Both the position numbers and the translations under genes were made by a program. A stretch of DNA of 64,000 bases, taken from the NCBI GenBank assembly GCA_010672925.1, contig JAAHFP010000023.1, forward strand, positions 22,584 to 86,583, written 5' to 3'. Below are positions 11,069-60,175 of this stretch, piece after piece. Positions within the stretch are counted from its first letter, which is position 1; each line of letters begins with the position of its first letter. This stretch comes from Symploca sp. SIO1C2. GTDB taxonomy: Bacteria > Cyanobacteriota > Cyanobacteriia > Cyanobacteriales > Coleofasciculaceae. A model generated the notes under the pieces. That model did not search any database and was not told the origin of the DNA. It saw only the letters and a list, made by a program, of their open reading frames with translations.

Positions 11069-14032
11069 TTACAACCAGCTTCCTACTAGAACATAGGGAG
11101 CCCAGAAAAGAGGAGATTGGAACTGGGGGTCTTGTAACATTGCCTTTTGTGCTTGTTGTAGGGCTTCAGCACGAGAAACCTTAGGCTGTCCTAAGTTCTG
11201 GTAAAATTGTTCAGTGAAGGCAATGCTGGATTGATCATCCAAACTCCAAAGAGACGCGATCGCACTCCTTGCTCCAGCCTGGATAGCAGTCCCGGCAATT
11301 CCCAGTACTGCTCGATTGTTGCCCGTCGCGGTTCGGCAGGCACTGAGGATCAGTAATTCAATTCCTCGGTCTGTTGCTGAATCTTGGCTGCGAAATAACT
11401 TGCTAAATTCGTCTAAGGGTATCTTACCGTCTGCGGCAAGAATGTAGGTCTCTTCTGGGTTATCCCCAAATTGACCGTGAGTTGCTAGGTGTACAATATC
11501 GAAACTGGAGCGCTCAAGTTCTTCCTCTAAAGCTGTTTTGGTGAAATATTGGTCACGGATAAAGGTGGTGGGAACGCCTATGGATCCTATTTTGTCTAAC
11601 TCAGGATTGGCATTGGCTAATACAGCGAAATCACCAATGCCTGAGGGAGGTTCAGTGAGACTGGTTGCCAGTACATTCATACTAGCACGACTCAGGGGAA
11701 TAGGGTCTCGGACGTTTAAGCCCAAAAGCAAGGTTGTTGCATAGTTTTCGACTAAATACTGTTTCCCGTCATAAAGCGCTGCCATGGGAATATTTCGCAA
11801 AGGGCCATCCAGAACAAAGATGAGGGTTTGAATATTGTAGCGTTCGAGGTCGGATTGTGCAGGTTTAATTAACCAATCGTAGATGATTTTCCCTTCCTCT
11901 TTAGCGAAAAAAGATACAGAATCTTGTAAATTGCTGCGGAAACTTTTTAGGGTACTTTCCACCTTTGAGCGAGATAGCTTAGTAGATGGATAATGAATTA
12001 GAGTTTCGTTGCCAGGTAACTTGAGGATAACTTCGAGACGGTCTTCCAAAAGAATCGGATAGAGGACAGCAGCAGTTGCATCTTTTTGCTCAATTACGCG
12101 GTCAACTTGTATAGTTGAATCTAAACAAGCAGACTGAAAGAAGTTTTCCAATTCTGCTACCTGTAGTGCTTCCATCACCTGACGTGCTTGTTCCAGGTTT
12201 TTTTGGCTGGTTTCGGTGCTTCCTTGACGTGCTTGTTTCAGGTTTTTTTGTCCAGGTTCAACACTTCCCTGAGGTTGCAGGAGCAAGTCTACAAGTTCCC
12301 GATAGATGGGTTCAACTTCATCTCGGAAGGTAAATTTAATATCGGGGTTGGCAGCGACTAAGTCTTTTCTGAGGAATTTTAGACTGTTATAGGCCCCGGA
12401 GTAGGCGATAATTGCTTCTTGCTGTTGACCCCGTTTTTTTAATAGTTGTCCCAGCTGCCACTGCCAGCGATAAGCAATTTCCGGAGCATTATGGGCTTGT
12501 ACTAAAGCTTGTCGGGTAAGGTTTTCTGCTATCTGCCATCGTTTGGCTTGTTGGTAGACTTGTCCCAGGTAACCGAGGGCATAAGATTCTGCTACAGTAT
12601 CTTCTAGGCGTTGCGCTTGCTGCTGGGCATGAGCTAAAAGCTGAGCAATTTCTTTTAGAGATATGATCTCAGACTTCGATGAACTTGCTTTGACAACGTA
12701 GGATAAAAATGTCCCTGTCTCCCCATCTCCCCATCTTGCCGTCCCCGTGTCCCCGCGTCCCCGCGTCCCCGCGTCTATTCCCCGTTGAGCTTGATATTGT
12801 TCGAGGAGGGTTTGGGCAAAGTGAATTTGGTCATAGATGGCAGGACGAGTAGTGGGAAGTTGCTTGACTAATGCTTGGAGTTGGGTAACTGTTGCCATTA
12901 CTTCTTCTAAACCTTTAGTTTCTAGCAACAGGTCGAGTTGATTGACATATGCTTTAAACTGTGCATTGGGAGAGGTCGCCTGAGTAGCAGCTTCTTGATA
13001 GTATTGGATAGCCTGTTCCTTGTCCCCTTGGGAACGAGCGGTGTTACCTAGACCCAGCAAAGCGGCACTGATATCTTCCGGGGAGTTGAGAGTACGGGCA
13101 ATCTTGAGGCTGGTTTGCAGTGCCTTTTGCGCTTGGTCGAGGCGACTGACGGAACGAAGCAGATTTCCCAAATTAGAGTAAGCGGCAGCTTTGAGGGCAT
13201 CGTCAGGTTGAGTTTTCAAAGTTGTTTGTTCAAGTTGCTCTAGGGTATTGCTAGCACGACGGTATAGCCCTAAAGCCCGCAATGCCAGGGCTTGATTAAT
13301 TTGGCTGCGAATAATGCCAGGTTCATCGGGGATTTGGGTATAGAGTTTGGTGGCTTCTTTCCAAGTGGTGAGAGCAGTTTCGGATTGTCCTTGAGTAAGT
13401 TGCAAAGTCCCTTGGGTATTGAGGGCTTGTGCTTGAGCCTGCAAATGTTCTTGGGTATTGGCAGGGATAGTTTCGATCAACCCCAAGCTTTCCTCGATGG
13501 CTTGATTGGCTTCATCCCACTGTCCCAACTCTTGATGGGCAAGTGCTAGGTTGCTCAAGGTCATTGCCTGGTTGAGGAGTTCTCCTTGATTGGCATAGGC
13601 AGTCGCGGCTTGTTGCCAAGCTTCTAGGGCAGCGGTAAATTGTCCGGTTTGATAGAGGGTATTGCCTTGTTCAAAGAGATGGAAGGCACTGATTTCTTTG
13701 CCCCCTAAATCCCCATCTATAAAGTAGCGAAGCATCCGCTGATTCCCCCAGAATTGGGGGCTAGGGGGCGGGGGATTTTGAGTATCGGGTTTGAGTGAGT
13801 GAAATGTTGGGTCAAATTTCCATTCTCCCCGTCTCCCCGTCTCCCCGTCTCCCCGTCTCCCCGTCCCTGCGTCTATTTCCACAGTTGGTATCAGGTTATC
13901 TGTCTTGGGGACAAGGGCAGCAGCGGGAGTCCAGTCTAGGTAAAGCTTCAGAAGGGTTAGGCTTAGGCCAAAGCCAAAGTAACACAGGAATTTGAGAAGT
14001 TGGGGATGGGGTCTTATTTGTTGTTTAGACAT
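11069..14032 (-). CDS. TPR-CHAT protein (caspase-like peptidase domain)
   Basis: This 987-residue protein has an N-terminal hydrophobic segment (about residues 11-40), TPR units over roughly 115-600, and a C-terminal CHAT domain (about 680-987). The CHAT catalytic pair is visible as His852 in VHLATHG and Cys899 in LSACRTA, so the clan-CD peptidase site looks intact. CHAT proteases often sit beside TpsA-type exoproteins in cyanobacteria; here the gene is between tpsA2 and tpsA3 on the same strand. Processing or surveillance of those proteins is an inference. The protein has absorbed intergenic repeats in frame: residues around 50-95 (RRGDGETGRRG, then NPPPPSPQFWGNQ) and a second GRGDTGTARWGDGETG patch encoded at about 12708-12783. 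A tandem duplication (QKNLKQARQGSTET / QKNLEQARQ) lies in the linker before CHAT. Confidence 0.92.
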   Translation of the reverse strand: MSKQQIRPHPQLLKFLCYFGFGLSLTLLKLYLDWTPAAALVPKTDNLIPTVEIDAGTGRRGDGETGRRGEWKFDPTFHSLKPDTQNPPPPSPQFWGNQRMLRYFIDGDLGGKEISAFHLFEQGNTLYQTGQFTAALEAWQQAATAYANQGELLNQAMTLSNLALAHQELGQWDEANQAIEESLGLIETIPANTQEHLQAQAQALNTQGTLQLTQGQSETALTTWKEATKLYTQIPDEPGIIRSQINQALALRALGLYRRASNTLEQLEQTTLKTQPDDALKAAAYSNLGNLLRSVSRLDQAQKALQTSLKIARTLNSPEDISAALLGLGNTARSQGDKEQAIQYYQEAATQATSPNAQFKAYVNQLDLLLETKGLEEVMATVTQLQALVKQLPTTRPAIYDQIHFAQTLLEQYQAQRGIDAGTRGRGDTGTARWGDGETGTFLSYVVKASSSKSEIISLKEIAQLLAHAQQQAQRLEDTVAESYALGYLGQVYQQAKRWQIAENLTRQALVQAHNAPEIAYRWQWQLGQLLKKRGQQQEAIIAYSGAYNSLKFLRKDLVAANPDIKFTFRDEVEPIYRELVDLLLQPQGSVEPGQKNLKQARQGSTETSQKNLEQARQVMEALQVAELENFFQSACLDSTIQVDRVIEQKDATAAVLYPILLEDRLEVILKLPGNETLIHYPSTKLSRSKVESTLKSFRSNLQDSVSFFAKEEGKIIYDWLIKPAQSDLERYNIQTLIFVLDGPLRNIPMAALYDGKQYLVENYATTLLLGLNVRDPIPLSRASMNVLATSLTEPPSGIGDFAVLANANPELDKIGSIGVPTTFIRDQYFTKTALEEELERSSFDIVHLATHGQFGDNPEETYILAADGKIPLDEFSKLFRSQDSATDRGIELLILSACRTATGNNRAVLGIAGTAIQAGARSAIASLWSLDDQSSIAFTEQFYQNLGQPKVSRAEALQQAQKAMLQDPQFQSPLFWAPYVLVGSWL
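13742..13885. repeat. Intergenic-type repeats inside the TPR-CHAT coding region
   Basis: Two repeat types normally found between genes are translated here. One is CCCCCAGAATTGGGGGCTAG (13745 onward). The other is a CTCCCCGT minisatellite (about 13824-13870) that ends in GCGTCTATT. The same minisatellite type recurs at 12708-12783 and, outside genes, at 50107-50139. Confidence 0.75.
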
Positions 14033-31875: not shown

Positions 31876-32027
31876 GGGTGAACGAAATTTTGGGTGGGAT
31901 TTCTTGAGCTTTGTATCCAAACATTATCAGTTCTCTCTTCTTCCTCCGCTCCTCTGCTCCTCCGCTCCTCTGCTCCTCCGCTCCTCCGCTCCTCTGCTCC
32001 TCCGCTCCTCTGCTCCTCTGCTCCCCC
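31876..32027 (+). mobile_element. MITE-like repeat family 1, right end missing
   Basis: It begins with the left end GGGTGAACGAAATTTT and the conserved 50-bp head (GGGATTTCTTGAGCTTTG, CCAAACATTATCAG). The 8-bp minisatellite GCTCCTCT/GCTCCTCC follows. The right inverted end is absent: the core stops three bases before the tpsA4 stop codon. Confidence 0.75.
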
Positions 32028-32030
32028 GAT

Positions 32031-35000
32031 TTAGGGTGCCTGTGTAACACCTTCTCCTTGACAAGATGGTTGGGGTTGCCATTCCCCTTGGTTATTGGCA
32101 GTTGAGACATGAGCAGTGAGGGTCACGTTATCTTGCTCATCAAGAATCCAGCCTTGGGCTTCGACGAGGGGTTGGGGGGAAGAAAACGAATTTTGACCTG
32201 AGACTTCCCTTCCCGGGTAAACGAAATTTTGGGTGGGATTTCTTGAGCTTTGTATCCAAACATTATCAGTTCTCTCTTCTTCCTCCGCTCCTCTGCTCCT
32301 CCGCTCCTCTGCTCCTCCGCTCCTCTGCTCCTCCACTCCTCCGCTCCTCCGCTCCTCTGCTCCCCACCCTTTTTTTCGCTCACCCTCCCTTCCCCGCGTC
32401 ACCGTGTCCCCGCGTGCCCACATCTGCTGCTCATTAACAGCTGTACCTAAATCCGCCATCGGTCGTTGTGAACTGAGCATATCTGTGGGGCTAGGAGGCA
32501 ATCCGTCCCTTCCTGTTACTGTAAATTCATTCCTGCCGCTTCCCGTAGGAGAGCAGGTTTGGTCTAATTGAGGGGCTACGGTGTCGATGGGCAATTCGCT
32601 TAATCCTTGACTAGGATCTATAGCCAGGGAATTAATGGTGATTTGACCGGAAATACCGAAGTCGGAACTCGCATCTATATCGTTAGTACCATTACCATCA
32701 ATTGCTTGTCGTTCTCGGATATTGTAGAGACCCAGGTTGGAAGTAATGTCGATACGCCCTCCATTTCCCCCTTCAGCTTTGGCAATGATATCACTACCAT
32801 TTTCTCCTGTTGCTGGCAAGGCAACGAAGATACCTTGATCTGAGCGGAGGTTAATGGTAATGTTACCGCCGTTGGCCTCTCCAATTGCTTCAGCAGAAAT
32901 CAGGCTTTCGTTGCTCAGAAACAGAACATCGGCTAATTCTAAGTTGATATTGGCACCTTGTTGTAGACCATTACCTCCGGTGATAGCGGTGAGTTGTCCC
33001 CGATTTAAATTAAGGATATCGGCGGTGAGGGAAAGATTACCAGCTTGTCCAGAGGGGCTACTGACGGTTACTTGTGCGCCTTCTTGAATATTCACCAGAG
33101 GGGCGGTAATTGTCACATTACCAGCACTACCGCCATCCGTGGCTTCTGCGACAATACCTCCACTACCATCTGTTAGAGTGCCACTCAAGTTAACGGAATC
33201 GGAGGCTTTGACGGTAACACTTCCCGCTTGACCAGTTTGAGTCGAGGTAGAAATTAAGCTTTCAGTTACCTCTAATTTCTCTAGTCCTAGTAAGTTAATG
33301 TCTCCACCCTGGTTAGCTGACACGTTACTAGCTAAGATTTCGGCAGCATTGGCCAAACTCAGTTGAGAGGTATGGAAATTAATACCCCCTGCGTTACCTC
33401 CTTCCCCTTCGGCTTGGGCTGAAATGCGACTCTGGTTAAGGGTAACTGAAGCAGCTGGATTGTCTTGTTGATTTAGGTTGATACTACCGGCTTGACCGGT
33501 TTGAGTAGAGGTAGAAATTAAGCTCTGGTTTACCTCTAATTTCTCTAATCCTCTTAAGGTGATATCTCCACCCTGGTTAGCAGAAACATTACTGGCTACG
33601 ATTTCAGCAGCATTTGCTAAACTCAGTTGAGAGGTATTGAAATTAATACCCCCTGCATTACCTCCTTCCCCTTCGGCTTGGGCTGAAATGCGACTCTGGT
33701 TAAGGGTAACTGAAGCAGCTGGATTGCCTTGTTGATTGAGGTTGATACTACCGGCTTGACCGGTTTGAGTAGAGGTAGAAATTAAGCTCCGATTGACCTG
33801 TAATCTATCTAGTCCTAGTAAATTAATATCTCCACCCTGGTTAGCGGAAACATTACTGGCTGAGATTTCGGCAGAATTTGCTAAACTCAGTTGAGAGGTA
33901 TGGAAATTAATGCCCCCTGCGTTACCTCCTTCCCCTTCGGCTTGGGCTGAAATGCGACTCTGGTTAAGGGTAACTGAAGCAGCTGGATTGCCTTGTTGAT
34001 TGAGGTTGATACTACCAGCTTGACCCGTTTGAGTCGAGGTAGAAATTAAGCTCTGGTTTACCTCTAATTTCTCTAATCCTCTTAAGGTGATATCTCCACC
34101 CTGGTTGGCGGAAACATTACTGGCTGAGATTTGGGCATCATCTTCTAAACTCAGTTGAAAGATGTGGAGATTAATGCCCCCTGCATTACCTCCTTCCCCT
34201 TCGGCTTGGGCAGAGATACTGCTATTTTTGAGAGAGACTGAGGCAGCTGGATTGTCTTGTTGATTGAGGTTGATACTGCCAGCTTGTCCTGTTTGAGTTG
34301 AAGCTGAAATACTGCTGTCATTAGTTAAGTTTAAGCTATTAACATTGTTCAGACTGATATTGGCAGGATTGCTAGAGCCTCCGCCATCGGTTTCGGCACT
34401 GATATGACCATTATTAAGGTTAACGCCGTTGGCACTAATATTGACATCACCAGCAATACCCTCACCATTGTCACTACTAACAGCAACTTGCGCTCCTTCC
34501 TCAATCGATAATTGTTGAGTATTGATTTCGATACCACCTGCGTTACCACCATTGCTGGCTTCTGCGAGAATGCCACCACTACCATTGGTTAGGATGCCAC
34601 TCAAGTTAACTGAATTGGAGGCTCCTACGGTAACATTTCCTGCTTGACCAGTTTGAGTAGAGGTGGAAATTAAGCTTTCAGTTACCTCTAATGTCTCTAA
34701 TCCTTGTAAGTTGATATCTCCACCTTGCTTAGCAGAAACATTACTGGCTAAGATTTGGGCATCATCTTCTAAACTCAGTTGAAAGATGTGGAGATTAATG
34801 CCCCCTGCATTACCTCCTTCCCCTCCGGCTTGGGCAGAGATACTGCTATTGTCGAGGTTAACTGTGTCTGCTTGATTGAGGTTGATACTACCGGCTTGTC
34901 CTGTTTGAGTCGATGCTGAAATACTGCTGTCATTAGTTAAGTTTAAGCTATTGACATTGTTGAGGCTGATATTGGCTGGGTTGGTACTACCTCCACCATC

Positions 35001-38000
35001 GGTTTCGGCGCTGATGTGACCATTATCAAGATTAACGCCACTAGCACTAATATTGACGTCACCGGCGATACCGTCACCATTGTCACTACTAACAGCAACT
35101 TGCGCTCCTTCCTCGATGGACAATTGTTGGGTATTAATTTGGATACCACCAGCATCACCACCATTGCTGGCTTCTGCGAGAATACCGCCACTACCATTGG
35201 TTAGAGTGCCACTCAAGTTAACCGACTCGGAGGCTCCTACGGTAACATTTCCTGCTTTACCAGTTTGAGTCGAGGTAGAAATTAAGCTCTCAATGACTTG
35301 TAATGTATCTAATCCTCTAATGGTGATATCTCCACCCTGGTTAGCAGAAACATTACTCGCTAAGATGGCAGCAGCATTGGTTAAATTCAGTTGAGAGGTA
35401 TAGAGATTAATACCTCCTGCATTACCTCCTTCCTTTTCGGCTTGGGCTGAGATACTGCTGTTATTGAGAGTCACTGAGGCAGCTGGATTGTTTTGTTGGT
35501 TGAGGTTGATACTACCGGCTTGACCAGTTTGGGTGGAAGCAGATATCTCACTGCGATCGCGTAATTGTAGATAAGTTATATTCTGTAGTTGAATATCACC
35601 ACCTTCACCTGCTTGGGTGGTTGCCGTTAATCTGGCAAGGTTATCCAAAACGACAGAAGGGGCATTAACTATCAGGTTTCCTGCCCTGCCCTCACCGGTA
35701 CTGCTAACGGTGGCACTAGCACTATCTTGAAGAGTCAGTTGGTTGGCTGTAATCTCTAGGTTTCCTGCATTAGCAGCTCCTTCGGTTTCGGCAAACAGAC
35801 CACTGTTAGCACCAGAAAGGTTGACGGTGTTAGCTCTGACAGTAAGATTACCACCGGTTCCTTGATTATTGGTAGAGGTAGTGGTGGTGGAAACTTGCGC
35901 TCCACCGTTAATATTCAAGATGGGGGTGGTAATTTCCACATTGCCTGCCATACCTGAGCCACTGGTTTCCGAAGACAACTTGCCATCACCACTCAAGGTC
36001 ACAGACTGGGGTGCTGTGAGGAAAATGTTACCACCTAGTCCGGTGCTAGTGCTGGAGGCTGATATCTCTGCTCCATCCTGGAATAAAATAGACAATGTTT
36101 GTCCATTAGTGTCAGGTCGCAAGTTAATATTTCCCGCACCTCCGCTACTGCTAGTTTGGGCAAACAAAGCACTAGCAGCATCAAGCAGTCTAATTTCTGG
36201 GGCGGAGACAGTGATATTTCCTGCCTGTCCTGTTTTGCTGGTGTCACTGATAATTTGACTATTATTAAAGATGACTAGACTAGGGCTAGTTATGGCGACA
36301 TTCCCTGCTGAGGCACTGCCTTTAGTGTCGCTTTCAATCTGAGTATTGTTGAATGTGAGGTTTCCTAAGCTGTTGACAGTGACATCTCCTGATCGACCTG
36401 CTTGACCAACATTCAAGGTGATTGGTTCATCCTTATTTAATGGGTTTTCCACCGTCACCTGCCCACTAGTCAGAATGTTGGTATCGGCAATCAATAAATC
36501 CCCCGTTCCTTCTACTTGAACATTCCCAGCTCTGGATTCTGCCCAAGAAGAGAGGGTTAATATATCTAGATTGCTCACAGTGTTTTGTGCTTCTAGAGTA
36601 ACGTTACCACCATTCCCTGTGGTTCTTCCTGCCTCGGAGATAGAGAAGGAGTTAAGAACTCGATTGTTAGAGCCTTCGGAAACTCCCTTAATTTCACCAT
36701 TTATGGCATGGAGGCTAATTGCCCCTCCATTTCCTGCATCGCCAGGTGAGAACGAGAAAGAGTTCAAATCGTCAGTAATCTTGATATCGTTGTTGGCGTC
36801 TAAGCTAATCGCCCCTCCATTCCCTACATTGCCTTCTCTTGAGAACGAGAAAGAGTCCAAAGAGCTAGTGGTAATGCTGCTGTTGGCATGGAGGCTAATC
36901 GCCCCTCCATTCCCTACATTGCCTCCAGTTGAGAACGAGCTAGAATTCAAGGAGCTAGTGGTAATGCTGCCGTTGGCGTCTAAGCTAATCGCCCCTCCAT
37001 TCCCTGCATTACCATATGAGTACAAGCCAGAATACAAAGAGCCAGTGGTAATGCTGCCGTTGGCATCTAAGCTAATCGCCCCTCCATTCCCTGCACTGCC
37101 TAACCTTGAGAACAAGCTAGAATTCAAAGAGCCAGTGGTAATACTGCCGTTGTTGGTCTGGAAACTAATTGCCCCTGCATTCCCTGCATTTGAGCGCAAG
37201 CTAGAATTCAAAGAGCCAGTGGTAATACTGCCGTTGTTGGTCTGGAAACTAATTGCCCCTGCATTCCCTGCATTGCCTACTTGTGAAAACGAGTAAGAGT
37301 CCAAATCGTCAGTGGTAATGCTGCCGTTGTTGGTCTGGAAGCTAATCACCCCTGCATTCCCTGCATTCCCTGCATTCCCTGCATTGCTGATGCGATATGA
37401 GGACGAGTAAGACTCCAAAGAGCCAGTGGTAATGCTGCCGTTGTTGGTCTGGAAGCTAATCGCCCCTCCATTCCTTGCACTGCCTTCAACTGAGAACGAG
37501 CGAGAATTCAAAGAGCCAGTGGTAATGCTGCCATTATTGGTCTGGAAGCTAATCGCCCCTCCATTCCCTGCACTGCCATAAGCTCCATTCCCTGCATTGC
37601 CGAATCTTAAGTACGAGAAAGAGTCCAAATCGCCAGTGGTAATGCTGCCGTTGTTGGTCTGGAAGCGAATCGCCCCTCCATTTCCTGCATCGCCTCGATT
37701 TGATTCCGAGCGAGAATTCAAAAAGCCAGTGGTAATGCTGCCGTTGCTGGTCTGGAAGCTAATTGTCCCTCCATTTCCTGCATCGCCTCGAATTGATTCC
37801 GAGCGAGAATTCAAAAAGCCAGTGGTAATGCTGTCGTTGTTGGTCTGGAAGCTAATTGCCCCTCCATTTCCTGCATCGCCGAACCTTGAGAACGAGTCAG
37901 AGTTCAAAAAGCCAGTGGTAATGCTGTCGCTGGCGTCTAAGCTAATCGCTCCTCCATTTCCTGCATCGCCCAACCCTGAGAACGAGTGAGAATTCAAAGA

Positions 38001-40562
38001 GTCAGTGGTAATGCTGCCGTTGGCGTCTAAGCTAATCGCCCCTCCATTTCCTGCATTGCCTGTATTTGAAGACGAGGGAGAATTCAAAAAGACAGTGGTA
38101 ATGCTGCCGTTGGCGTCTAAGCTAATCGCTCCTCCATTTCCTGCATCGCCCAACCCTGAGAACGAGTGAGAATTCAAAGAGTCAGTGGTAATGCTGCCGT
38201 TGGCGTCTAAGCTAATCGCTCCTCCATTCCCTGCATTACCTCGATTTGATGACGAGGGAGAATTCAAAAAGCCAGTGGTAATGTTGCCGTTGGCGTCTAA
38301 GCTAATCGCCCCTCCATTTCCTGCATTGCCTGTATCTGAGGACGAGTAAGAATCTAAATCGCCAGTGGTAATGCTGCCGTCGGCGTCTAAGCTAATTGTC
38401 CCTCCATTTCCTGCATTGCCTGTATCTGAGGACGAGTAAGAGTCCAAAGAGCCAGTGGTAATACTGTCGTCGGCGTCTAAGCTAATTGTCCCTCCATTTC
38501 CTGCATTGCCTGTATCTGAGGACGAGTAAGAGTCCAAAGAGCCAGTGGTAATACTGTCGTTGTTGGTCTGGAAGCTAATCGCTCCTCCATTTCCTGCATC
38601 GCCTTCAAGTGATTCCGAGCGAGAATTCAAAGAGTCAGTGGTAATGCTGCCGTCGGCGTCTAAGCTAATTGCCCCTCCATTTCCTGCATTGCCTGTATCT
38701 GAGGACGAGTAAGAATCCAAAGAGCCAGTGGTAATACTGTCGTTGGCGTCTAAGCTAATTGCCCCTCCATTTCCTGCATTGCCTGTATCTGAGGACGAGT
38801 AAGAATCCAAAGAGCCAGTGGTAATACTGTCGTTGGCGTCTAAGCTAATTGCCCCTCCATTCCCTGCATCTCCTGTATCTGAAGACGACTCAGAGTCCAA
38901 ATCACCAGTGATCCTAATAGAATCGGCATCTAAGCTAATTGCCCCTCCATTCCCTGCATCGCCGAACTTTGAGTACGAGTCAGAATCCAAATCGTCAGTG
39001 GTAATGCTGTCGTTGGCATCTAAGCTAATTGCTCCTCCATTCCCTGCATCGCCGAACCTTGAGTACGAGTCAGACTCCAAATCGCCAGTGGTAATGCTGC
39101 CGTTGGCGTCTAAGCTAATCCTTCCTCCATTGCCTGCATTGCCATAATATGAGTACGAGTCAGACTCTAAATCGCCAGTGGTAATGTTGCCATTAACAGC
39201 AGAGAGGATGATATCCCCTCCATCGGCATCATTACCAAAAACAGAAGTATCAATATCACCAACAGTAATCCCTAACGGTATCCCATTAGCAGGAGGTATG
39301 AAACTCGTACCTCCTCCATTCTGAGGCAGATTAGGATTAGTCACGGCATCTAACCCTGCCCGTAATATCACCGATGGCTTTTCTGTCAAAGTTGCATAAT
39401 CTGGATCATCTGCCGGAATTGTCGCATCAGGTCCGGTAATCCGAATATCCCCACCCTTAATACTACCCGTCGCCTCTACCTTTAGAGCAACACCTGTATA
39501 ATCCCCAAACTCCACATCCCCATTTACCCGAATAATCGGGTCATACCAACTGATAAAAGTCCCTGGTGTTCCTGCCAATGTCCGCATGGAGAGATTACCA
39601 CCACTGAAAAAGTGAGCATCCCCGGAAATATCTCCATCACTAATCAGAGTAAAATCCCCTCCACTCCCTAGCTGTGAGTCAGGATGATTGAGGGTAAAAA
39701 TATCGATCGCCTGATTCCCTTGTATCGTTAGCTGTCTACCCGAGGTGGCAATAACTGGATTGCTCACACTATCGTGCAACTTTACCGTATCCGTTGCCAG
39801 AAGGTTTAAATCCCTCCCTGCCTGCAACTGACCCGACAAATTAAGACGACTTCCTACTAAAGTCAGGTCTTGCCCGGTGGTTAAATTCCCTTCATTAACA
39901 ATTTCTGCTTGAGGCTCAGAATTTCCCCACTGTATCCCCGGAGTCACATTAATCGCCAACAACGGTGGTGCTTCTGGATTAGTGGCACTAAAACTGCTCC
40001 CATCAGACCAATTAAATCCATTCTCCGTAGAAGCCACCAACGAACCTCTAACATCCAACTGAGCATTGGGTCCAAAGACAATACCATTAGGATTAACTAA
40101 GAATAAATTAGCATTTCCTAATACTCCCAAGGTGCCTAAAATATCCGAGCCCTTATTCCCAGTAACCCGACTCAAGATATTCTCAATACCGGCAGGATTG
40201 GCAAAATAAACCCGTTGTCTGTCTAATACATTAAACTCTAGAAAACTATGGAATAAGTTTGCTCCTCGTAGTGCTCCACCATCAATGAGATCCCCCGAAT
40301 TTCCTTGAATATCGACATCTTCTGTCATGCGAGAACCTTCAGAACCCAAAGTAGCATCGGGGATAATTTGAGCAGAAACTGGAGGTAGGAGGAACCCACC
40401 CCTAACCCCTCCAAGGAGGGGGACAAGAGGCAGTATCCAGGAGAGGAGAAAGTTTTTGTAGTGAGCTTTTTTTCCTTTTTTAAGTGGTGGTTGATTGGCG
40501 CGGTGAGGCACGAGTAACCTATCCACCAGAAAAATTACTGCACTCATCTTGGTGAAATGCAT
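32031..40562 (-). CDS. TpsA4, two-partner-secretion exoprotein, largest paralog
   Basis: The 2843-residue exoprotein starts MHFTKMSAVIF with a GAGGAG ribosome binding site. Signal region (ending PPVSA/QIIPD), TPS domain (NPNGIVFGPNAQLDVRG) and the type-A module are followed by about 27 copies of a 30-residue repeat (AGNGGAISLDANGSITTGSL) over roughly residues 445-1290. Then come beta-helix super-repeats and the common C-terminal tail. A repeat-derived low-complexity segment (AEERRSGG units, then TDNVWIQSSRNPTQNFV) is inserted in the tail by a MITE-like element at 32215-32385. A segment of GCGTC-type repeat (RGDTVTRGRE) lies next to it. The C terminus (GEGVTQAP) is longer than in the paralogs. 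Confidence 0.92.
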   Translation of the reverse strand: MHFTKMSAVIFLVDRLLVPHRANQPPLKKGKKAHYKNFLLSWILPLVPLLGGVRGGFLLPPVSAQIIPDATLGSEGSRMTEDVDIQGNSGDLIDGGALRGANLFHSFLEFNVLDRQRVYFANPAGIENILSRVTGNKGSDILGTLGVLGNANLFLVNPNGIVFGPNAQLDVRGSLVASTENGFNWSDGSSFSATNPEAPPLLAINVTPGIQWGNSEPQAEIVNEGNLTTGQDLTLVGSRLNLSGQLQAGRDLNLLATDTVKLHDSVSNPVIATSGRQLTIQGNQAIDIFTLNHPDSQLGSGGDFTLISDGDISGDAHFFSGGNLSMRTLAGTPGTFISWYDPIIRVNGDVEFGDYTGVALKVEATGSIKGGDIRITGPDATIPADDPDYATLTEKPSVILRAGLDAVTNPNLPQNGGGTSFIPPANGIPLGITVGDIDTSVFGNDADGGDIILSAVNGNITTGDLESDSYSYYGNAGNGGRISLDANGSITTGDLESDSYSRFGDAGNGGAISLDANDSITTDDLDSDSYSKFGDAGNGGAISLDADSIRITGDLDSESSSDTGDAGNGGAISLDANDSITTGSLDSYSSSDTGNAGNGGAISLDANDSITTGSLDSYSSSDTGNAGNGGAISLDADGSITTDSLNSRSESLEGDAGNGGAISFQTNNDSITTGSLDSYSSSDTGNAGNGGTISLDADDSITTGSLDSYSSSDTGNAGNGGTISLDADGSITTGDLDSYSSSDTGNAGNGGAISLDANGNITTGFLNSPSSSNRGNAGNGGAISLDANGSITTDSLNSHSFSGLGDAGNGGAISLDANGSITTVFLNSPSSSNTGNAGNGGAISLDANGSITTDSLNSHSFSGLGDAGNGGAISLDASDSITTGFLNSDSFSRFGDAGNGGAISFQTNNDSITTGFLNSRSESIRGDAGNGGTISFQTSNGSITTGFLNSRSESNRGDAGNGGAIRFQTNNGSITTGDLDSFSYLRFGNAGNGAYGSAGNGGAISFQTNNGSITTGSLNSRSFSVEGSARNGGAISFQTNNGSITTGSLESYSSSYRISNAGNAGNAGNAGVISFQTNNGSITTDDLDSYSFSQVGNAGNAGAISFQTNNGSITTGSLNSSLRSNAGNAGAISFQTNNGSITTGSLNSSLFSRLGSAGNGGAISLDANGSITTGSLYSGLYSYGNAGNGGAISLDANGSITTSSLNSSSFSTGGNVGNGGAISLHANSSITTSSLDSFSFSREGNVGNGGAISLDANNDIKITDDLNSFSFSPGDAGNGGAISLHAINGEIKGVSEGSNNRVLNSFSISEAGRTTGNGGNVTLEAQNTVSNLDILTLSSWAESRAGNVQVEGTGDLLIADTNILTSGQVTVENPLNKDEPITLNVGQAGRSGDVTVNSLGNLTFNNTQIESDTKGSASAGNVAITSPSLVIFNNSQIISDTSKTGQAGNITVSAPEIRLLDAASALFAQTSSSGGAGNINLRPDTNGQTLSILFQDGAEISASSTSTGLGGNIFLTAPQSVTLSGDGKLSSETSGSGMAGNVEITTPILNINGGAQVSTTTTSTNNQGTGGNLTVRANTVNLSGANSGLFAETEGAANAGNLEITANQLTLQDSASATVSSTGEGRAGNLIVNAPSVVLDNLARLTATTQAGEGGDIQLQNITYLQLRDRSEISASTQTGQAGSINLNQQNNPAASVTLNNSSISAQAEKEGGNAGGINLYTSQLNLTNAAAILASNVSANQGGDITIRGLDTLQVIESLISTSTQTGKAGNVTVGASESVNLSGTLTNGSGGILAEASNGGDAGGIQINTQQLSIEEGAQVAVSSDNGDGIAGDVNISASGVNLDNGHISAETDGGGSTNPANISLNNVNSLNLTNDSSISASTQTGQAGSINLNQADTVNLDNSSISAQAGGEGGNAGGINLHIFQLSLEDDAQILASNVSAKQGGDINLQGLETLEVTESLISTSTQTGQAGNVTVGASNSVNLSGILTNGSGGILAEASNGGNAGGIEINTQQLSIEEGAQVAVSSDNGEGIAGDVNISANGVNLNNGHISAETDGGGSSNPANISLNNVNSLNLTNDSSISASTQTGQAGSINLNQQDNPAASVSLKNSSISAQAEGEGGNAGGINLHIFQLSLEDDAQISASNVSANQGGDITLRGLEKLEVNQSLISTSTQTGQAGSINLNQQGNPAASVTLNQSRISAQAEGEGGNAGGINFHTSQLSLANSAEISASNVSANQGGDINLLGLDRLQVNRSLISTSTQTGQAGSINLNQQGNPAASVTLNQSRISAQAEGEGGNAGGINFNTSQLSLANAAEIVASNVSANQGGDITLRGLEKLEVNQSLISTSTQTGQAGSINLNQQDNPAASVTLNQSRISAQAEGEGGNAGGINFHTSQLSLANAAEILASNVSANQGGDINLLGLEKLEVTESLISTSTQTGQAGSVTVKASDSVNLSGTLTDGSGGIVAEATDGGSAGNVTITAPLVNIQEGAQVTVSSPSGQAGNLSLTADILNLNRGQLTAITGGNGLQQGANINLELADVLFLSNESLISAEAIGEANGGNITINLRSDQGIFVALPATGENGSDIIAKAEGGNGGRIDITSNLGLYNIRERQAIDGNGTNDIDASSDFGISGQITINSLAIDPSQGLSELPIDTVAPQLDQTCSPTGSGRNEFTVTGRDGLPPSPTDMLSSQRPMADLGTAVNEQQMWARGDTVTRGREGERKKGWGAEERRSGGVEEQRSGGAEERRSRGAEEEERTDNVWIQSSRNPTQNFVYPGREVSGQNSFSSPQPLVEAQGWILDEQDNVTLTAHVSTANNQGEWQPQPSCQGEGVTQAP
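32215..32385 (+). mobile_element. MITE-like repeat family 1, in-frame insertion in tpsA4
   Basis: The element is 171 bp. The left end GGGTAAACGAAATTTT and right end CCCACCCTTTTTTTCGC..ACCC are imperfect inverted repeats. A 9-bp direct repeat, TCCCTTCCC, flanks it (32206-32214 and 32386-32394). Element plus duplication is 180 bp, exactly 60 codons, so the frame is kept. The core is an 8-bp GCTCCTCT/GCTCCTCC array. Confidence 0.85.
36690..39190 (-). repeat. About 27 tandem 90-bp coding repeats in tpsA4
   Basis: Units of about 90 bp encode AGNGGAISLDANGSITTGSLDSYSSSDTGN-type 30-mers (two halves of under 20 residues each: AGNGGAISLDANGSITTG and SLDSYSSSDTGN). Several neighbours are identical at the DNA level. 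A subset uses FQTNN in place of LDAN. Unit number is the main reason this paralog is longer. Confidence 0.88.
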
Positions 40563-46594: not shown

Positions 46595-47060
46595 AAATCA
46601 CACAGACAATGCAAAGGATGCCCTGTATCGAAACACAATTAGCTTGGGAAAAGCCAGCTAATTGCCAGGGATACATCGGATGCAGTTTCCAAGGTCGTTG
46701 GCAGAGCTATACATCTGTATTTACTATGATGTAGCTGAATTTCCATAAGACCTCAAAACCTTGCAGTAAATGTATTAGTGATAAGAATTATCACCAATAC
46801 TTCACCTATCTAAAAAAAGTGGGAAGGTGAGGCAGACAACCCTTCTCTAGTAATTGTACAATACGATTGTGTTTTGAGTGCAGCTTATCTAATTTTTTAT
46901 ATAAGAGAGTAGGGAAAAATCCAGTTATTACACCATATATAGTGCTTATAAGTTGAACAATTAAGCCATATGTGGCGTAATTTTTGATTTAGTCTAAACT
47001 CTTCCCTTGAAGTATCTACCTTTTGATATATGTCTTTGGTATATGCCTTGTTTCTTAAAA

Positions 47061-47190
47061 GCAATTAGCAATTAGCAATTAACCATTAGCCATTAGCCAT
47101 TAGCCATTAGCCATTAGCCATTAGCCATTAACCATTAACCATTAGCCATTAACCATTAGCCATTAACCATTAGCCATTAGCCATTAACCA
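47061..47190. repeat. Heptanucleotide array (CCATTAG / CCATTAA)
   Basis: About 17-18 direct copies of a 7-bp unit, CCATTAG with CCATTAA variants, form a typical cyanobacterial short tandem repeat. A shorter copy is at 48839-48884. Both are followed by the same AACCAGAGTGTTTCTTAAGAG-type sequence (ACCAGAGTGTTTCTTAAG). Confidence 0.85.
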
Positions 47191-50149: not shown

Positions 50150-51238
50150 TCAATTCAAATTTGGCAGACTACTATCGTTTTCCAGAAAACGCTGGAAAGT
50201 CTCTAAATCAGGTAGAGAAGTTTGAGCCCCAGCTTGAGTAGCAGCAAGAGCACCAGCTGCTGATCCCCAGACTACCGCTTGTCTCAAAGAGAGCCCCTTG
50301 GTGAGAGCAACTGCTAAAGCACCATTGAAGGCATCACCCGCTGCCACGGTATCAACTGCCTGGACTGGGAAGGCAGGAACAAAAAAACTTTCCGACTCCG
50401 TAGCACAGAAAGCTCCTTGCTCCCCTAGTTTAACAATTACTGTGCCCACACCCCGTTGCTGTAGCACTTTTGCAGCTTGAGCCGCTGTTTCTTGCCCCTC
50501 TACAGGAAAACCTACCAACTGAGAGGCTTCTACTTGATTGGGAGTCAGAATATCCACGCTCTGGTAAAGTTCTAGTGGGAGTTCTTGAACCGGTGCAGGA
50601 TCGAGAATTACTGGAACACCTGCTTGCCTTGCGGCCCAAGCTGCTGACAATACTGCGGATAGGGGAATTTCTAGCTGCATAAGTAAGACGGCTGCTTCTG
50701 GGTGAACGAAATTTTGGGTGGGATTTCTTGAGCTTTGTATCCAAACATTATCAGTTCTCTCTTCTTCCTCCGCTCCTCCGCTCCTCCGCTCCTCCGCTCC
50801 TCCGCTCTTCCGCTCTTCCGCTCCCCACCCTTTTTTTCGCTCACCCCCTGCTTCTGGCAACAGGTTCTTGAGTCGTTCTACATCTGTTTCCCCTAACTGC
50901 TCATTAGCACCAGGAATCAAAATAATCTCGTTTTCCCCAGCATCATCCACCAGAATTACCGCAATACCGGAACTAGTTGCTCCATCTACCACAATCCCTT
51001 CGATATCAACACCCGTTGCCTGTAAACTACGACTTAGCTGTTGTCCGAAGTCATCATCTCCCAAGCGTCCCACCAACTTAGTAGAAATACCTAATCGCGC
51101 AGCCGCCACCGCTTGGTTTGCTCCTTTACCACCAGGGGCAGTAAAAAACTCATAGCCCTGCAAAGTTTCACCAGCGATGGGCAACCGAGGGGTTTTGGTT
51201 ACCAAATCCAGGTTGATGCTGCCAAAAACTATAATCAT
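50150..51238 (-). CDS. rbsK: Ribokinase with a 52-residue repeat-derived insertion
   Basis: A PfkB-family sugar kinase that phosphorylates D-ribose to ribose 5-phosphate. N-terminal GSINLDLV and GGKGANQAVAAARLG, and C-terminal AGDAFNGALAVAL (catalytic Asp in the GAGD-like AAGDAF motif), are intact. The length is 362 residues; ribokinases are usually about 305-310. The excess is a segment after LLPEA, beginning GGERKKGWGAEE and ending NFVHPEA, encoded by a MITE-like element at about 50700-50847. Without it the chain would read LLPEAAVLLMQLE, as in normal ribokinases. The insertion sits in a surface loop region before a beta strand, so activity may survive; that is inferred. Confidence 0.93.
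   Translation of the reverse strand: MIIVFGSINLDLVTKTPRLPIAGETLQGYEFFTAPGGKGANQAVAAARLGISTKLVGRLGDDDFGQQLSRSLQATGVDIEGIVVDGATSSGIAVILVDDAGENEIILIPGANEQLGETDVERLKNLLPEAGGERKKGWGAEERKSGGAEERRSGGAEEEERTDNVWIQSSRNPTQNFVHPEAAVLLMQLEIPLSAVLSAAWAARQAGVPVILDPAPVQELPLELYQSVDILTPNQVEASQLVGFPVEGQETAAQAAKVLQQRGVGTVIVKLGEQGAFCATESESFFVPAFPVQAVDTVAAGDAFNGALAVALTKGLSLRQAVVWGSAAGALAATQAGAQTSLPDLETFQRFLENDSSLPNLN
50700..50847 (+). mobile_element. MITE-like repeat family 1, in-frame insertion in rbsK
   Basis: The element has left end GGGTGAACGAAATTTT and right end TTTTTTTCGCTCACCC; the 23-bp ends match at 18 positions when inverted. The core is GCTCCTCC 8-bp units. The direct repeat CTGCTTCTG flanks it (50692-50700 and 50848-50856), encoding PEA on both sides. 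Element plus duplication is 156 bp, 52 codons. The exact edge is uncertain by one base. Confidence 0.9.
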
Positions 51239-56033: not shown

Positions 56034-56495
56034 ATGCATCATGCTTCGATTCGTACAGCGAACATTCACCGTGCGATAGCTTTCTACGAACTATTGGGAT
56101 TTACTGTTTCTGAACGCTTTACCACTGGCATCACCCTAGCCTGCTGGATGGAAGGGCTCAGTGGGCGCATTGAACTCATCCAAATTCCTGAACCAAAACC
56201 TGCTCCCGATGCTTTCGGTGATGAACATTATGTTGGATACTACCATTTGTCTTTTGACTTAACTGATACTTCTACTGATCTTCCAACTTGGCTTGAGTCC
56301 CTGCAACATAAATTTAATGAGGCTTCCAGTCACAATCCTGATCAGTTTCAGCCCCTGAAAGTTTTGCTGGGGCCAACTCAGCAGATCATTGGCGATTATG
56401 TCTACGAAGTGGCTTTTATTGCTGATACTGATGGACTTCCTCTAGAATTTTTGCGGGTTTTAGCTCACCGTGCGGAAAGCCCCACGCTTCCTTAA
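56034..56495 (+). CDS. VOC-superfamily (glyoxalase-like) protein
   Basis: A 153-residue protein with the paired beta-alpha-beta-beta-beta fold of the vicinal oxygen chelate superfamily. Metal-ligand candidates are the His pair at the N terminus (MHHASIRTANI), Glu in RIELIQIP, His in YYHLSFDL and Glu in LPLEFLRV. It could be a glyoxalase I-like or dioxygenase-like enzyme; the substrate cannot be read from the sequence. It stands alone, just before the small-RNA-like array. Confidence 0.88.
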   Translation: MHHASIRTANIHRAIAFYELLGFTVSERFTTGITLACWMEGLSGRIELIQIPEPKPAPDAFGDEHYVGYYHLSFDLTDTSTDLPTWLESLQHKFNEASSHNPDQFQPLKVLLGPTQQIIGDYVYEVAFIADTDGLPLEFLRVLAHRAESPTLP

Positions 56496-56780
56496 GCGAC
56501 AATACTAGTTAGGTAATGAGATTTTTGTTGTCCCTGGGTAACTGTTATTTTAGTTCCGCCGCAAAAAAATATAACCGCAATTTGTGATTAATTTAGCAGC
56601 AATTTATCCGGGTAATAGGGTTTTCTAGAAGAAGAAAGAAGTGGTAGATGCACCCTGATAATTCCCTCCTGGTTCTGATGAGCTTGGGGGATTTTTATTT
56701 TCTCTATCTAATTATTGATTTGGTTCTATAAAAGAAAAATATAACTAAAATTTGTAATTGATTTAGTAGTGATTTATCCG

Positions 56781-56786
56781 GATAAT
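56781..56786 (+). promoter_or_regulatory. Representative -10 element of array unit 2
   Basis: GATAAT follows TTGATT at a 17-bp spacing. Equivalent boxes occur at 56611 (GGTAAT), 56951 (GATAAT) and 57121 (GATAGT), and in all later units. The predicted transcript start is near 56793. Confidence 0.55.
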
Positions 56787-56833
56787 AGAGTTTTCTAGAA
56801 GAAGAAAGAAGTGGTAGATGCACCCTGATAATT

Positions 56834-56870
56834 CCCCCCTGGTTCTGATGAGCTTGGGGGATTTTTATTT
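56834..56870 (+). terminator. Representative intrinsic terminator of array unit 2
   Basis: CCCCC and GGGGG enclose GGTTC..GAGCT with a four-base loop (TGAT), then ATTTTTATTTT. The same structure recurs in every unit of the array and points to transcription on the plus strand. Confidence 0.7.
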
Positions 56871-58400
56871 TCTCTATCTAATTATTGATTTGGTTCTATA
56901 AAAGAAAAATATAACTAAAATTTGTGATTGATTTAGTAGTGATTTATCCGGATAATAGAGTTTTCTAGAAGAAGAAAGAAGTGGTAGATGCACCCTGATA
57001 ATTCCCCCCTGGTTCTGATGAGCTTGGGGGATTTTTATTTTCTCTATCTAATTATTGATTTGGTTCTATAAAAGAAATACGCCACGACCATTGGTGATTG
57101 ATTTAGCAGTAAATTATCCGGATAGTAGATTTTTTAAAGAGAAGGAAGAAGTAGTAGATGCACCCTGATAATTCCCCTCTAGTTCTGATGAGCTTGGGGG
57201 ATTTTTATTTTCTTTGGATAACTAGTGACTGAGTTCTCTCAAATAAATCCGCCACGACCATTGGTTATTGATTTCAGTAGTAAATTATCCGGATAGTAGA
57301 TTTTTTAAAGAGAAGGGAGAAGTAGTAGATGCACCCTGATAATTCCCCCCTAGTTCTGATGAGCTTGGGGGATTTTTATTTTCTTTGGATAACTAGTGAT
57401 TTAGTTCTCTCAAATAAATCCGCCACGACCATTGGTTATTGATTGAGAAGTAAATTATCCGGATAGTAGATTTTTTAAAGAGAACTAAGAAGTAGTAGAT
57501 ACACCCTGATAATTTCCCCCTAGTTCTGATGAGCTTGGGGGATTTTTATTTTCTTTGGATAACTAGTGATTTAGTTCTCTCAAATAAATACGCCACGACC
57601 ATTGGTGATTGATTTAGCAGTAAACTATCCGGATAGTAGATTTTTTAAAGAGAAGGAAGAAGTAGTAGATGCACCCTGATAATTCCCCCTGGTTCTGAGG
57701 AGCTTGGGGGATTTTTATTGCCTTTGGTTAAATAGGTAATTAGTTCTCTCAATGGAATACACTACCACTATTTATGATTGATTTAGCAGTAAATTTCCGG
57801 ATAGTAGATTTTTTAAAGAGAAGGAAGAAGTAGTAGATGCACCCTGATAATTTCCCCCGGCTCTGAGGAGCTTGGGGGATTTTTATTGCCTTTGGTTAAC
57901 TAGGTAATTAGTTCTCTCAATGGAATACACTACCACTATTTATGATTGATTTAGCAGTAAGTTTCCGGATAGTAGATTTTTTAAAGAGAAGGAAGAAGTA
58001 GTAGATGCACCCTGATAATTTCCCCCGGCTCTGAGGAGTTTGGGGATTTTTATTGCCTTTGGGTAACTAGTTAATTAGTTCTCTCAATGGAATACACTAC
58101 CACTATTTATGATTGATTTAGCAGTAAATTATCCGGATAGTAAATTTTGTAAAGAGAAGGAAGAAGTAGTAGATGCACCCTGATAATTTCCCCCGGCTCT
58201 GAGGAGTTTGGGGGATTTTTATTGCCTTTGGGTAACTAGTTAATTAGTTCTCTCAATGGAATACACTACCACTATTTATGATTGATTTAGCAGTAAATTA
58301 TCCGGATAGTAAATTTTGTAAAGAGAAGGAAGAAATAGTAGATGCACCCTGATAGTTATCCCCTGGCTCTAAGAAGCTTGGGGGATTTTTATATCCTTGG

Positions 58401-58729: not shown

Positions 58730-60175
58730 ATGAATTCTTCGTGTGAGGAGGGTGAGCAAAACTTAGTACAAACGGAAGCTTCTCTGCAAGCCTTCTTTGA
58801 TCTTTCCCCAGATTTGCTGTGTATTCGTAGCAGTGATGGTTATTTCCAGCAGCTAAACTCAGTTTGGCAGACGACTTTAGGGTGGACACTAGAGGAATTG
58901 CGATCGCGTCCCTGGTTAGATTTCGTCCATCTTGATGATATTGCCTTCACCTTTGATTGGGAGCGTCAATGCTATCTTCAGGAAAACCACACTCCTATAC
59001 AATTTAAAAATCGCTATCGTTGCCGAGACGGGAGCTACCGGTGGTTATCCTGGCGTTTATCCCCCTATGAAAATGGCTTAAGTTACGGCATTGCTCAAGA
59101 TGTTACTCAAAACAGTTGGCTGGGTAGTGAAGCCTATCGCGCCGAGTTACAGGAAATGGTGAAATTAAGGGATCAAGCGATTGCTGCTAGCAGTGTCGGG
59201 ATTACCATTGCCGATGCTCGATTACCGGACATGCCCTTAATTTATGTTAATCCTGCTTTTGAAGTTATCACCGGTTACTCCCCTGCTGATGTACTAGGTT
59301 ACAACTGTCGTTTTTTGCAAGGAAAAAAAGCTCATCAACCAGCGGTTGCCGAACTCCGTGCTGCCATTAAAGCTGGAAAAAACTGCACTGTCACTTTACT
59401 CAATTACCGCAAAGATGGGACCCCCTTCTGGAATGAATTAACTATCTCACCCATTTATGATGATTATAACAACCTCACCCACTTTGTCGGTATTCAATCT
59501 GATATTAGCGCTCGTGTAAGAGCAGAAACAGCCCTACGTGTAGAAAAAAACAAATCAGAAAAACTACTACTCAATATTTTGCCCCAACCGATTGCTGAGC
59601 AATTGAAACAGCTTCAGAGTTCTTTGGCTCAACAATTTGACCAAGTTACAATTTTGTTCGCTGACATTGTGGGCTTTACCCCTCTATCTAGCCAAATGCC
59701 ACCTTTAGAACTGCTCAATTTTCTCAATCAAATTTTTTCGGCTTTTGATAAATTAGCTGAAAAACACGGGGTTGAGAAGATTAAAACCATTGGGGATGCC
59801 TACATGGTGGCAGGTGGCTTGCCTGTACCCCAAGATAATCATACCGAAGCGATCGCTAATATGGCTCTAGATATGCAGCAAGAAATTACCCGCATCCAAG
59901 CACAACAGGGAAAATCGTTTCAGATACGCATTGGTATTAATACCGGTCCTGTGGTTGCTGGAGTGATTGGCATAAAAAAGTTCATCTATGATTTGTGGGG
60001 TGATGCCGTCAATGTTGCTTCCCGGATGGAATCATCAGGAGTTGCAGGAAAAATACAGGTTAGCGCTGCTACTTATGAACGCTTGAAGGACAAATTTGTC
60101 TTGGAAAAGCGAGGTGATATCTTAGTTAAAGGGAAAGGAGAAATGACTACCTATTGGTTGATTGCTAGGGTGTAA
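58730..60175 (+). CDS. PAS-LOV-adenylate cyclase, probable blue-light-activated
   Basis: This 481-residue protein makes cAMP from ATP, probably under blue-light control. Residues about 18-127 are a PAS domain. Residues about 150-262 are a LOV domain with the flavin-adduct motif GYNCRFLQ (Cys193), plus NYRKDGTPFWNEL and GIQSDI, all canonical for FMN binding. The class III cyclase domain (about 300-480) has metal Asp312 (FADIVGFT) and Asp356 (GDAYMV). Lys352 and Asp421 are the adenine-selecting pair, and Asn428 and Arg432 are the transition-state residues. Domain order agrees with the LOV-type photoactivated cyclase known from Microcoleus chthonoplastes (mPAC). Light regulation is inferred. Confidence 0.92.
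   Translation: MNSSCEEGEQNLVQTEASLQAFFDLSPDLLCIRSSDGYFQQLNSVWQTTLGWTLEELRSRPWLDFVHLDDIAFTFDWERQCYLQENHTPIQFKNRYRCRDGSYRWLSWRLSPYENGLSYGIAQDVTQNSWLGSEAYRAELQEMVKLRDQAIAASSVGITIADARLPDMPLIYVNPAFEVITGYSPADVLGYNCRFLQGKKAHQPAVAELRAAIKAGKNCTVTLLNYRKDGTPFWNELTISPIYDDYNNLTHFVGIQSDISARVRAETALRVEKNKSEKLLLNILPQPIAEQLKQLQSSLAQQFDQVTILFADIVGFTPLSSQMPPLELLNFLNQIFSAFDKLAEKHGVEKIKTIGDAYMVAGGLPVPQDNHTEAIANMALDMQQEITRIQAQQGKSFQIRIGINTGPVVAGVIGIKKFIYDLWGDAVNVASRMESSGVAGKIQVSAATYERLKDKFVLEKRGDILVKGKGEMTTYWLIARV

Follow-up and report, generated by a model that had tools for sequence, protein, structure and literature searches.

What is encoded by an array of direct repeats that stands, in the cyanobacterium Symploca sp. 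SIO1C2, between a gene for a VOC-fold protein and one for a PAS/LOV-like cyclase, and to which regulatory circuit would its products belong? The repeats lie in the 64,000-nucleotide stretch of DNA that was analysed (the window), part of a host genome of 8.67 Mb that is 97.9% complete, and their features are collected in Table 1. A preliminary description of the locus had proposed eleven direct repeats of 168-171 bp, which is borne out by the distances between successive copies of a 5' motif, the seed (170, 170, 170, 171, 170, 170, 168, 168, 168 and 169 bp), and by Tandem Repeats Finder (score 2323, 93% matches, 10.7 copies, period 170). Each unit ends, as had been described, in a terminator-like hairpin followed by a T-run (11/11), and each gives a full-model match to the Rfam family RF02399 (NsiR1), at 46.4-54.1 bits against a gathering cut-off of 39 bits in covariance-model score. 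NsiR1 had been named at the outset as the close parallel; direct comparison with the family model makes all eleven units NsiR1 itself. Judged by these matches the array is a known kind of RNA, a local expansion of nsiR1, and thus an addition to an established family, found in a host where it was not expected. That the units are NsiR1 genes, each transcribed separately, we regard from their sequences as almost certain.

The units fall into three sequence groups (units 1-3, 4-7 and 8-11), with greater likeness within than between groups and with unit 7 intermediate, about equally close to unit 8 and to units 4-6; this fits local duplication, as was expected when about three groups were first proposed. 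The 5' seed UAGUAGAUGCACCCUGAUAA is mostly unpaired and nearly invariant across the units, and the early suggestion that the conserved unpaired stretch GATGCACCCTGATAATT binds targets is judged right, this being the likely pairing region. Predicted folding energies of the RNAs are -14.3 to -19.0 kcal/mol, only a modest gain over shuffled sequences (z -0.35 to -3.29), so that folding alone is weak evidence for them. One stem pair is U-G in seven units and C-G in four; the wobble-to-Watson-Crick change noticed earlier is therefore real, but the copies that carry it are, in our reading of the alignment, units 8-11 and not 8-10. Two-sided pair changes were found at none of the 18 pairs in the array alignment. 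Other repeats occur in the window: long tandem repeats, perhaps belonging to repeat-rich proteins, in its left part (3022-4245, 8519-9180, 36792-39191 and others; periods 84-366 bp, mostly multiples of three), and 7-8 bp microsatellites (TCTCCCCG, TCCTCCGC and AGCCATT) at 13824-13865, 31942-32028, 32281-32363, 47060-47190 and 50766-50824.

Table 1. The nsiR1 array and its neighbouring genes, in window coordinates.
Feature	Position	Strand	Remarks
VOC/glyoxalase-fold protein gene, neighbour	56034..56495	+	Pfam PF00903
Tandem array, 11 nsiR1 units	56580..58392 (approximate)	+	Period ~170 bp, RF02399
NsiR1 unit 1	56642..56698	+	RF02399 49.1 bits; DIF1-like TCCGGG 56607-56612
NsiR1 unit 2	56812..56868	+	RF02399 53.9 bits; DIF1 TCCGGA 56777-56782
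NsiR1 unit 3	56982..57038	+	RF02399 53.9 bits; DIF1 56947-56952
NsiR1 unit 4	57152..57208	+	RF02399 48.9 bits; DIF1 57117-57122
NsiR1 unit 5	57323..57379	+	RF02399 51.2 bits; DIF1 57288-57293
NsiR1 unit 6	57493..57549	+	RF02399 46.4 bits; DIF1 57458-57463; seed G to A, GTAGATACACCC
NsiR1 unit 7	57663..57718	+	RF02399 49.3 bits; DIF1 57628-57633
NsiR1 unit 8	57831..57886	+	RF02399 51.6 bits; DIF1 57796-57801
NsiR1 unit 9	57999..58053	+	RF02399 49.3 bits; DIF1 57964-57969
NsiR1 unit 10	58167..58222	+	RF02399 50.4 bits; DIF1 58132-58137
NsiR1 unit 11	58336..58392	+	RF02399 54.1 bits; DIF1 58301-58306
PAS/LOV-like adenylate/guanylate cyclase gene, neighbour	58730..60175	+	Pfam PF00211 and PAS models

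The promoter assigned to each unit required revision. A sigma70-like promoter had been proposed, and TTGATT with GATAAT or GATAGT can indeed be read by eye in ten of the eleven units, unit 1 having neither. In all eleven, a DIF1 element begins 37 nt ahead of GTAGATG, exact in ten and TCCGGG in unit 1; DIF1 (TCCGGA) is described, in the text available of PMC6133370, at -35 of nsiR1 and of other heterocyst-induced promoters. When 58 NsiR1 loci were compared, one copy per locus, information peaked from -37 to -31 (TCCGGAT), from -14 to -9 and from -2 onward. TCCGGA is exact in 49/58 of these loci, whereas TTGATT-like hexamers occur in 17/58, near the 14.25 found in shuffles, and the hexamers were rejected as the promoter on these grounds. 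The array promoter is thus better read as DIF1 at about -35, the element better supported across loci, than as TTGATT/GATAAT. A similar picture emerges among 212 distinct NsiR1 copies upstream of hetF, in which DIF1, counted within the stretch 28-45 nt before the seed, is exact in 158, has one mismatch in 44 and is absent from ten, and starts precisely 37 nt before the seed in 179 of the 202 that have it. The position of DIF1 and the information peaks place the likely start close to where the Rfam match begins, giving a predicted RNA of about 57 nt. Each unit would accordingly be started by its own DIF1 promoter and ended by its own hairpin.

Two alternatives bear on this promoter. That the units are constitutive sigma70-type genes, making longer RNAs unrelated to HetR from the TTGATT/GATAAT hexamers, draws on the ten units in which these can be read; their near-shuffle frequency elsewhere, the conservation of TCCGGA and the lack of hexamers in unit 1 make it highly improbable. 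We think it just as improbable that the array acts as DNA, its eleven DIF1-type sites, packed inside 1.7 kb, titrating the activator of DIF1 promoters with the RNAs as by-products, given that across the 58 loci conservation is stronger in the RNA seed than in the DIF1 site, that a hairpin with T-run is kept in each unit and that a class of RNAs sharing the seed exists without DIF1 (below).

Activity of DIF1 promoters depends on HetZ according to the available part of PMC7377430. A covariance-model search across cyanobacterial genomes, which had been suggested as a check, was run on 386 genomes. It gave 95 with NsiR1 at E 0.001, from which 15 with weak matches (E 2.6e-5 to 5.2e-4) were dropped; all of the 80 retained have E 2.1e-7 or better and all 80 exceed the family cut-off. 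HetR (E 1e-20) is likewise present in 80 of the 386 and nifH (E 1e-100) in 59. NsiR1 and HetR occur together in 78 genomes, NsiR1 only in two, HetR only in two and neither in 304 (phi 0.97; the genomes are related, and the counts are not independent events), whereas for NsiR1 and nifH phi is 0.56. NsiR1 is found in 34 of the 36 genomes that have HetR and no nifH, and in none of the 15 with nifH and no HetR. NsiR1 follows HetR rather than nitrogen fixation, a co-occurrence of which we found no report in the open-licence literature searched. As to the exceptions, both HetR-only genomes (G058 and G083) have weak NsiR1 matches among those dropped. One NsiR1-only genome, G229, has hetF and a same-family relative with HetR (G419), and its missing HetR is possibly a draft gap; the other, G308, has a single NsiR1 match. 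A control search of E. coli with RF02399 gave a weak match, below the cut-off.

The host genome itself conforms to this pattern. HetR is present (542.6 bits, cut-off 489) and nifH was not found (best match 217 bits, cut-off 394), which makes heterocysts unlikely; the host appears, from its genome, unable to fix nitrogen. Just upstream of hetR (L160:4046-4951, minus strand) lies a gene for a PatX-like protein (L160:5263-5715, minus strand) with four RGSGR motifs, scoring 22.5 bits, under the PatX cut-off of 30; the counterpart in the same-genus genome G386 (L181) has five such motifs and that of Moorena bouillonii (L182) has one. An exact DIF1 was not found just upstream in this patX-like/hetR region. 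At E 0.001 the host has fifteen RF02399 copies: the eleven of the array and four at other places, of which that on contig C202 is under the cut-off. Altogether 27 seed genes were counted, 14 of the DIF1 type and 13 of a type with a HetR box. On these data the array is probably under control of the HetR circuit. It could instead be a silent relic, inherited from an ancestor and without present action, an idea in keeping with the missing nifH and with array transcripts being so far unreported. Yet each of the 20 same-family genomes searched, the host included, has between 4 and 34 RF02399 matches, promoter, seed and hairpin are kept among the copies, and an NsiR1-like RNA gene of 57 nt is listed with expression values in Limnospira in the available part of PMC8400943. 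We consider a relic very unlikely.

What would these RNAs bind? In Anabaena the hetF start site is placed at -256 with nsiR1.1 downstream of that start (PMC8406250), and NsiR1.1 is reported to lie antisense to the leader of hetF and to inhibit hetF translation (PMC9045159); alteration or removal of the nsiR1.1 -10 box barely affected transcriptional hetF reporters (PMC8406250), fusions that leave translation outside their reach. These points rest on the parts of both papers that were available. In the host hetF adjoins CRR6, and its product matches the N-terminal part of HetF at 622-624 bits, the whole-protein cut-off of 1200 bits being reached by genomes of family f6 only. The NsiR1 copy on contig C35 lies antisense upstream of this gene, the seed falling some 165-182 nt ahead of the GTG start. 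Complementarity between the array units and this upstream region is perfect over 18 nt in units 1-3, over 16 nt in units 4, 5 and 7-11 and over 9 nt in unit 6, so that ten of the eleven RNAs could pair with it over 16-18 nt. Duplexes between the 5' ends of the units and this region have energies of -30.6 to -36.2 kcal/mol (-23.9 for unit 6), compared with a mean of -13.1 and a best of -20.4 kcal/mol in 300 base shuffles tested with unit 4.

The same arrangement was sought upstream of hetF in the 78 of 386 genomes with HetF at E 1e-100, fetching up to 2.5 kb (eight regions are shorter, at contig ends) and searching with a model, R1, made from 40 sequences, among them NsiR1 copies from some of the genomes searched. 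NsiR1 precedes hetF in 47/78 regions and is antisense in every case, although in some of these as much as 2.3 kb separates hetF from the nearest exact site. Family f6 contributes 36/41 and all others together 11/37 (f1 and f20 3/3 each, f4 1/2, f22 1/3, and f16, f17 and f19 1/1 each). No match to R1 was found within the fetched sequence, up to 2.5 kb, in the remaining 31 of 78 regions, eight of the 78 being short, with 0/11 in f7, 0/5 in f2 and none in seven other families. As RF02399 matches genomes of both kinds, the antisense copy at hetF is here taken to characterise the Nostoc locus rather than the RNA family. All eleven f7 genomes carry NsiR1 elsewhere; targets besides hetF must therefore exist, the main evidence being that no site was found in the regions before hetF in f7 and f2. 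Whether hetF is a main target in the host species is, on the complementarity described, a question we judge evenly balanced.

To the competing reading, in which the RNAs are made as described but the seed serves mRNAs other than hetF in trans, for example hetP-like ones, as its main targets where heterocysts are lacking, we give somewhat less than an even chance. It accounts for genomes such as the eleven of f7, in which NsiR1 is present and hetF has no upstream site, and it has a precedent in Nostoc NsiR1.4, which binds the start region of the hetP homologue alr3234 (PMC9045159, text available in part). It has to contend with the 16-18 nt perfect match before the host's own hetF. In a genome-wide search, near-matches to the seed complement occur at 72 places in the host, compared with 25 for the reversed pattern, and 27 of the 72 are RNA genes; 40 of the other 45 were inspected, of which ten are near crude ORF starts, a figure that has no background for comparison. 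One near-match is recorded here as a candidate trans target: at L361 (host C112:301461), 48 nt ahead of the crude start of a presumed ParA gene (judged from its sequence only), 14 of 16 positions agree with the complement of the seed.

A function might also be sought in the genes beside the array. The position between a VOC gene and a cyclase gene is as first described, but this setting carries little meaning, since the neighbours vary. The VOC protein shares 96% identity with its counterpart in Symploca sp. SIO2E6, and an array stands beside the VOC gene in only one of 80 named VOC loci, that of a same-genus genome, some of the loci ending at contig ends; at L109 a lone seed match with three mismatches stands beside VOC without an NsiR1-like terminator. 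The cyclase, whose match to the YtvA family is below that family's cut-off, is 275 bp from the array in the same-genus genome G387 and about 1.7 kb away, with one gene between, in G386. In Moorena and relatives the array adjoins methionine aminopeptidase. A functional link to VOC or cyclase was rejected because the neighbours change between genera, and a link of the array to light is unsupported. In two f7 genomes arrays away from hetF adjoin a gene for a subtilisin-like protease, which is found next to the hetF-linked arrays in G410 and G229 too; this suggests that the older place of the array was by hetF. Separately, a single NsiR1 copy found in two species of the genus (L002, host C1:342673, and L178, G386:C49) has homologous genes on both sides, one of them a PAS/cyclase-type gene other than that of the window and the second presumably a precorrin methylase.

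The genome search for the seed complement also yielded a second class of RNA genes. It comprises a tandem array of eight units of about 200 nt (contig C57:74346-75758, loci L265 and L359) and single copies at C112:252167, C112:319819, C186:23936, C187:37607 and C202:140074. In the copies that were read, the NsiR1 seed is accompanied by a hairpin with T-run and preceded, at a distance of about 40 nt, by GGGGTGACACCCC, which has a GAT centre in C202 and lacks one G in the first unit of C57. In place of DIF1, which is absent from all ten distinct copies tested at five loci and from C202, an inverted repeat, GGGGTNNNACCCC, stands at about 40 to 28 nt ahead of the seed and forms a HetR-type box that can be written AGGGGTGACACCCCTCA. 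With RF02399, scores of 30.1-31.2 bits were obtained for all eight copies on C57 and for three other loci, and 37.9 for C202, all below the cut-off of 39, and the C187 copy (L286) has no match at E 0.1; the class, which shares only the seed with NsiR1, is filed here as its sibling. HetR is reported to bind GAGGGGTCTAACCCCTC before hetP, with GGGnnnnnCCC required (PMC4192349 and PMC4649674, in the parts available). The second-class box differs from this core in the central three bases and contains GGGnnnnnCCC.

The combination of box and seed recurs in other genomes, mostly with a constant spacing. Of 57 genomes (the host and relatives), 30 contain GGTGAYACCC-gap-GTAGATGCACCCTG, including 20/20 of the same family, and the reversed pattern gave no match in the 57. 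A looser pattern, GGGTNNNACCC-gap-GTAGATGCACCC, with the gap free from 20 to 40, was found in 37 of 314 genomes sampled across the phylum, and its reversed control in none of the 314. HetR is present in 36 of the 37, the exception being G229, and a further 32 HetR genomes lack the looser pattern, the sample being taken as G000-G313. The total length is 52 nt in 38 of 55 distinct strings among the 61 rows listed, with at least one such string in 28 of the 37 genomes. Genome-wide, HetR-type boxes give 39 strand hits compared with two in a control, many of them one palindrome counted on both strands. Fourteen box loci outside RNA genes appear, by eye, to share a few repeated, transposon-like flanks, and since boxes seem to stand in repeated elements the box alone is a weak sign of HetR and no proof of control by it. 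Such apparent repeated elements include L330, L332, L341, L346 and others with GGGGTNNNACCCC boxes and flanks such as AAGGATGCCACTGG; in L330, L332 and L341 two boxes are 95 nt apart. The HetR-box class, of which we found no report in the open-licence literature searched, is a new variant and, if real, would be under direct HetR control.

Taken as a whole, we consider it very probable from sequence that the array is an expansion of nsiR1 made of self-contained DIF1 units and linked to HetR. We infer transcription, control by the HetR circuit and pairing with hetF mRNA; the many copies of the array would raise the dose of the RNA, and two classes of RNA would give HetR two routes to one seed. 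More broadly, we give an even chance to the proposal that the HetR circuit has an RNA layer common to filamentous cyanobacteria, whether or not they form heterocysts. In this layer a single invariant seed of about 16 nt would be supplied by the DIF1 class and the HetR-palindrome class, HetR releasing it directly and, a second time, through HetZ, in a feed-forward arrangement with hetF and other mRNAs as targets. That species without nitrogenase keep and expand seed genes (27 in the host) would indicate an original job other than nitrogen fixation, which on this proposal would probably concern HetR level and cell division in filaments. A tie of NsiR1 to HetR in the absence of nifH provides a handle on the role of HetR in species without heterocysts, with small RNAs that have defined promoters and a predicted target as the read-out. 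Should the HetR-box class prove genuine, small RNAs would be among the direct targets of HetR, also in certain heterocyst formers, and a model system of bacterial development would gain a further layer.

The closest known system is NsiR1 of Nostoc (Anabaena) PCC 7120. As far as the sources available in part describe it, it shares with the host an RNA of about 60 nt with the same 5' seed, a DIF1 promoter for each copy, a tandem array of slightly divergent copies (12 there, 11 here) and a copy antisense upstream of hetF. NsiR1 is further marked by transcription that depends on HetR and NtcA and by expression confined to heterocysts, the nitrogen-fixing cells; the host has the hetR gene, and heterocysts are unlikely in it. 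The host differs in that nifH was not found, in the VOC and cyclase neighbours, in having one copy found at hetF and in its terminator loops; array and hetF are on different contigs, and the eleven-unit array lacks the arrangement that marks the Nostoc locus, where the array precedes hetF and a copy runs antisense to the leader. Limnospira indica PCC 8005 RNA162 (PMC8400943) is likewise NsiR1-like, in a host without heterocysts or N2 fixation, and NsiR1 outside heterocyst formers is therefore not new as such; the available part of that paper describes one RNA gene, with no array and no promoter or target analysis. The second class compares best with the HetR regulon, having the same inverted repeat as the hetP-type box with another centre, but the genes behind the known box, hetP among them, encode proteins, whereas those behind the box described here specify small RNAs with the NsiR1 seed.
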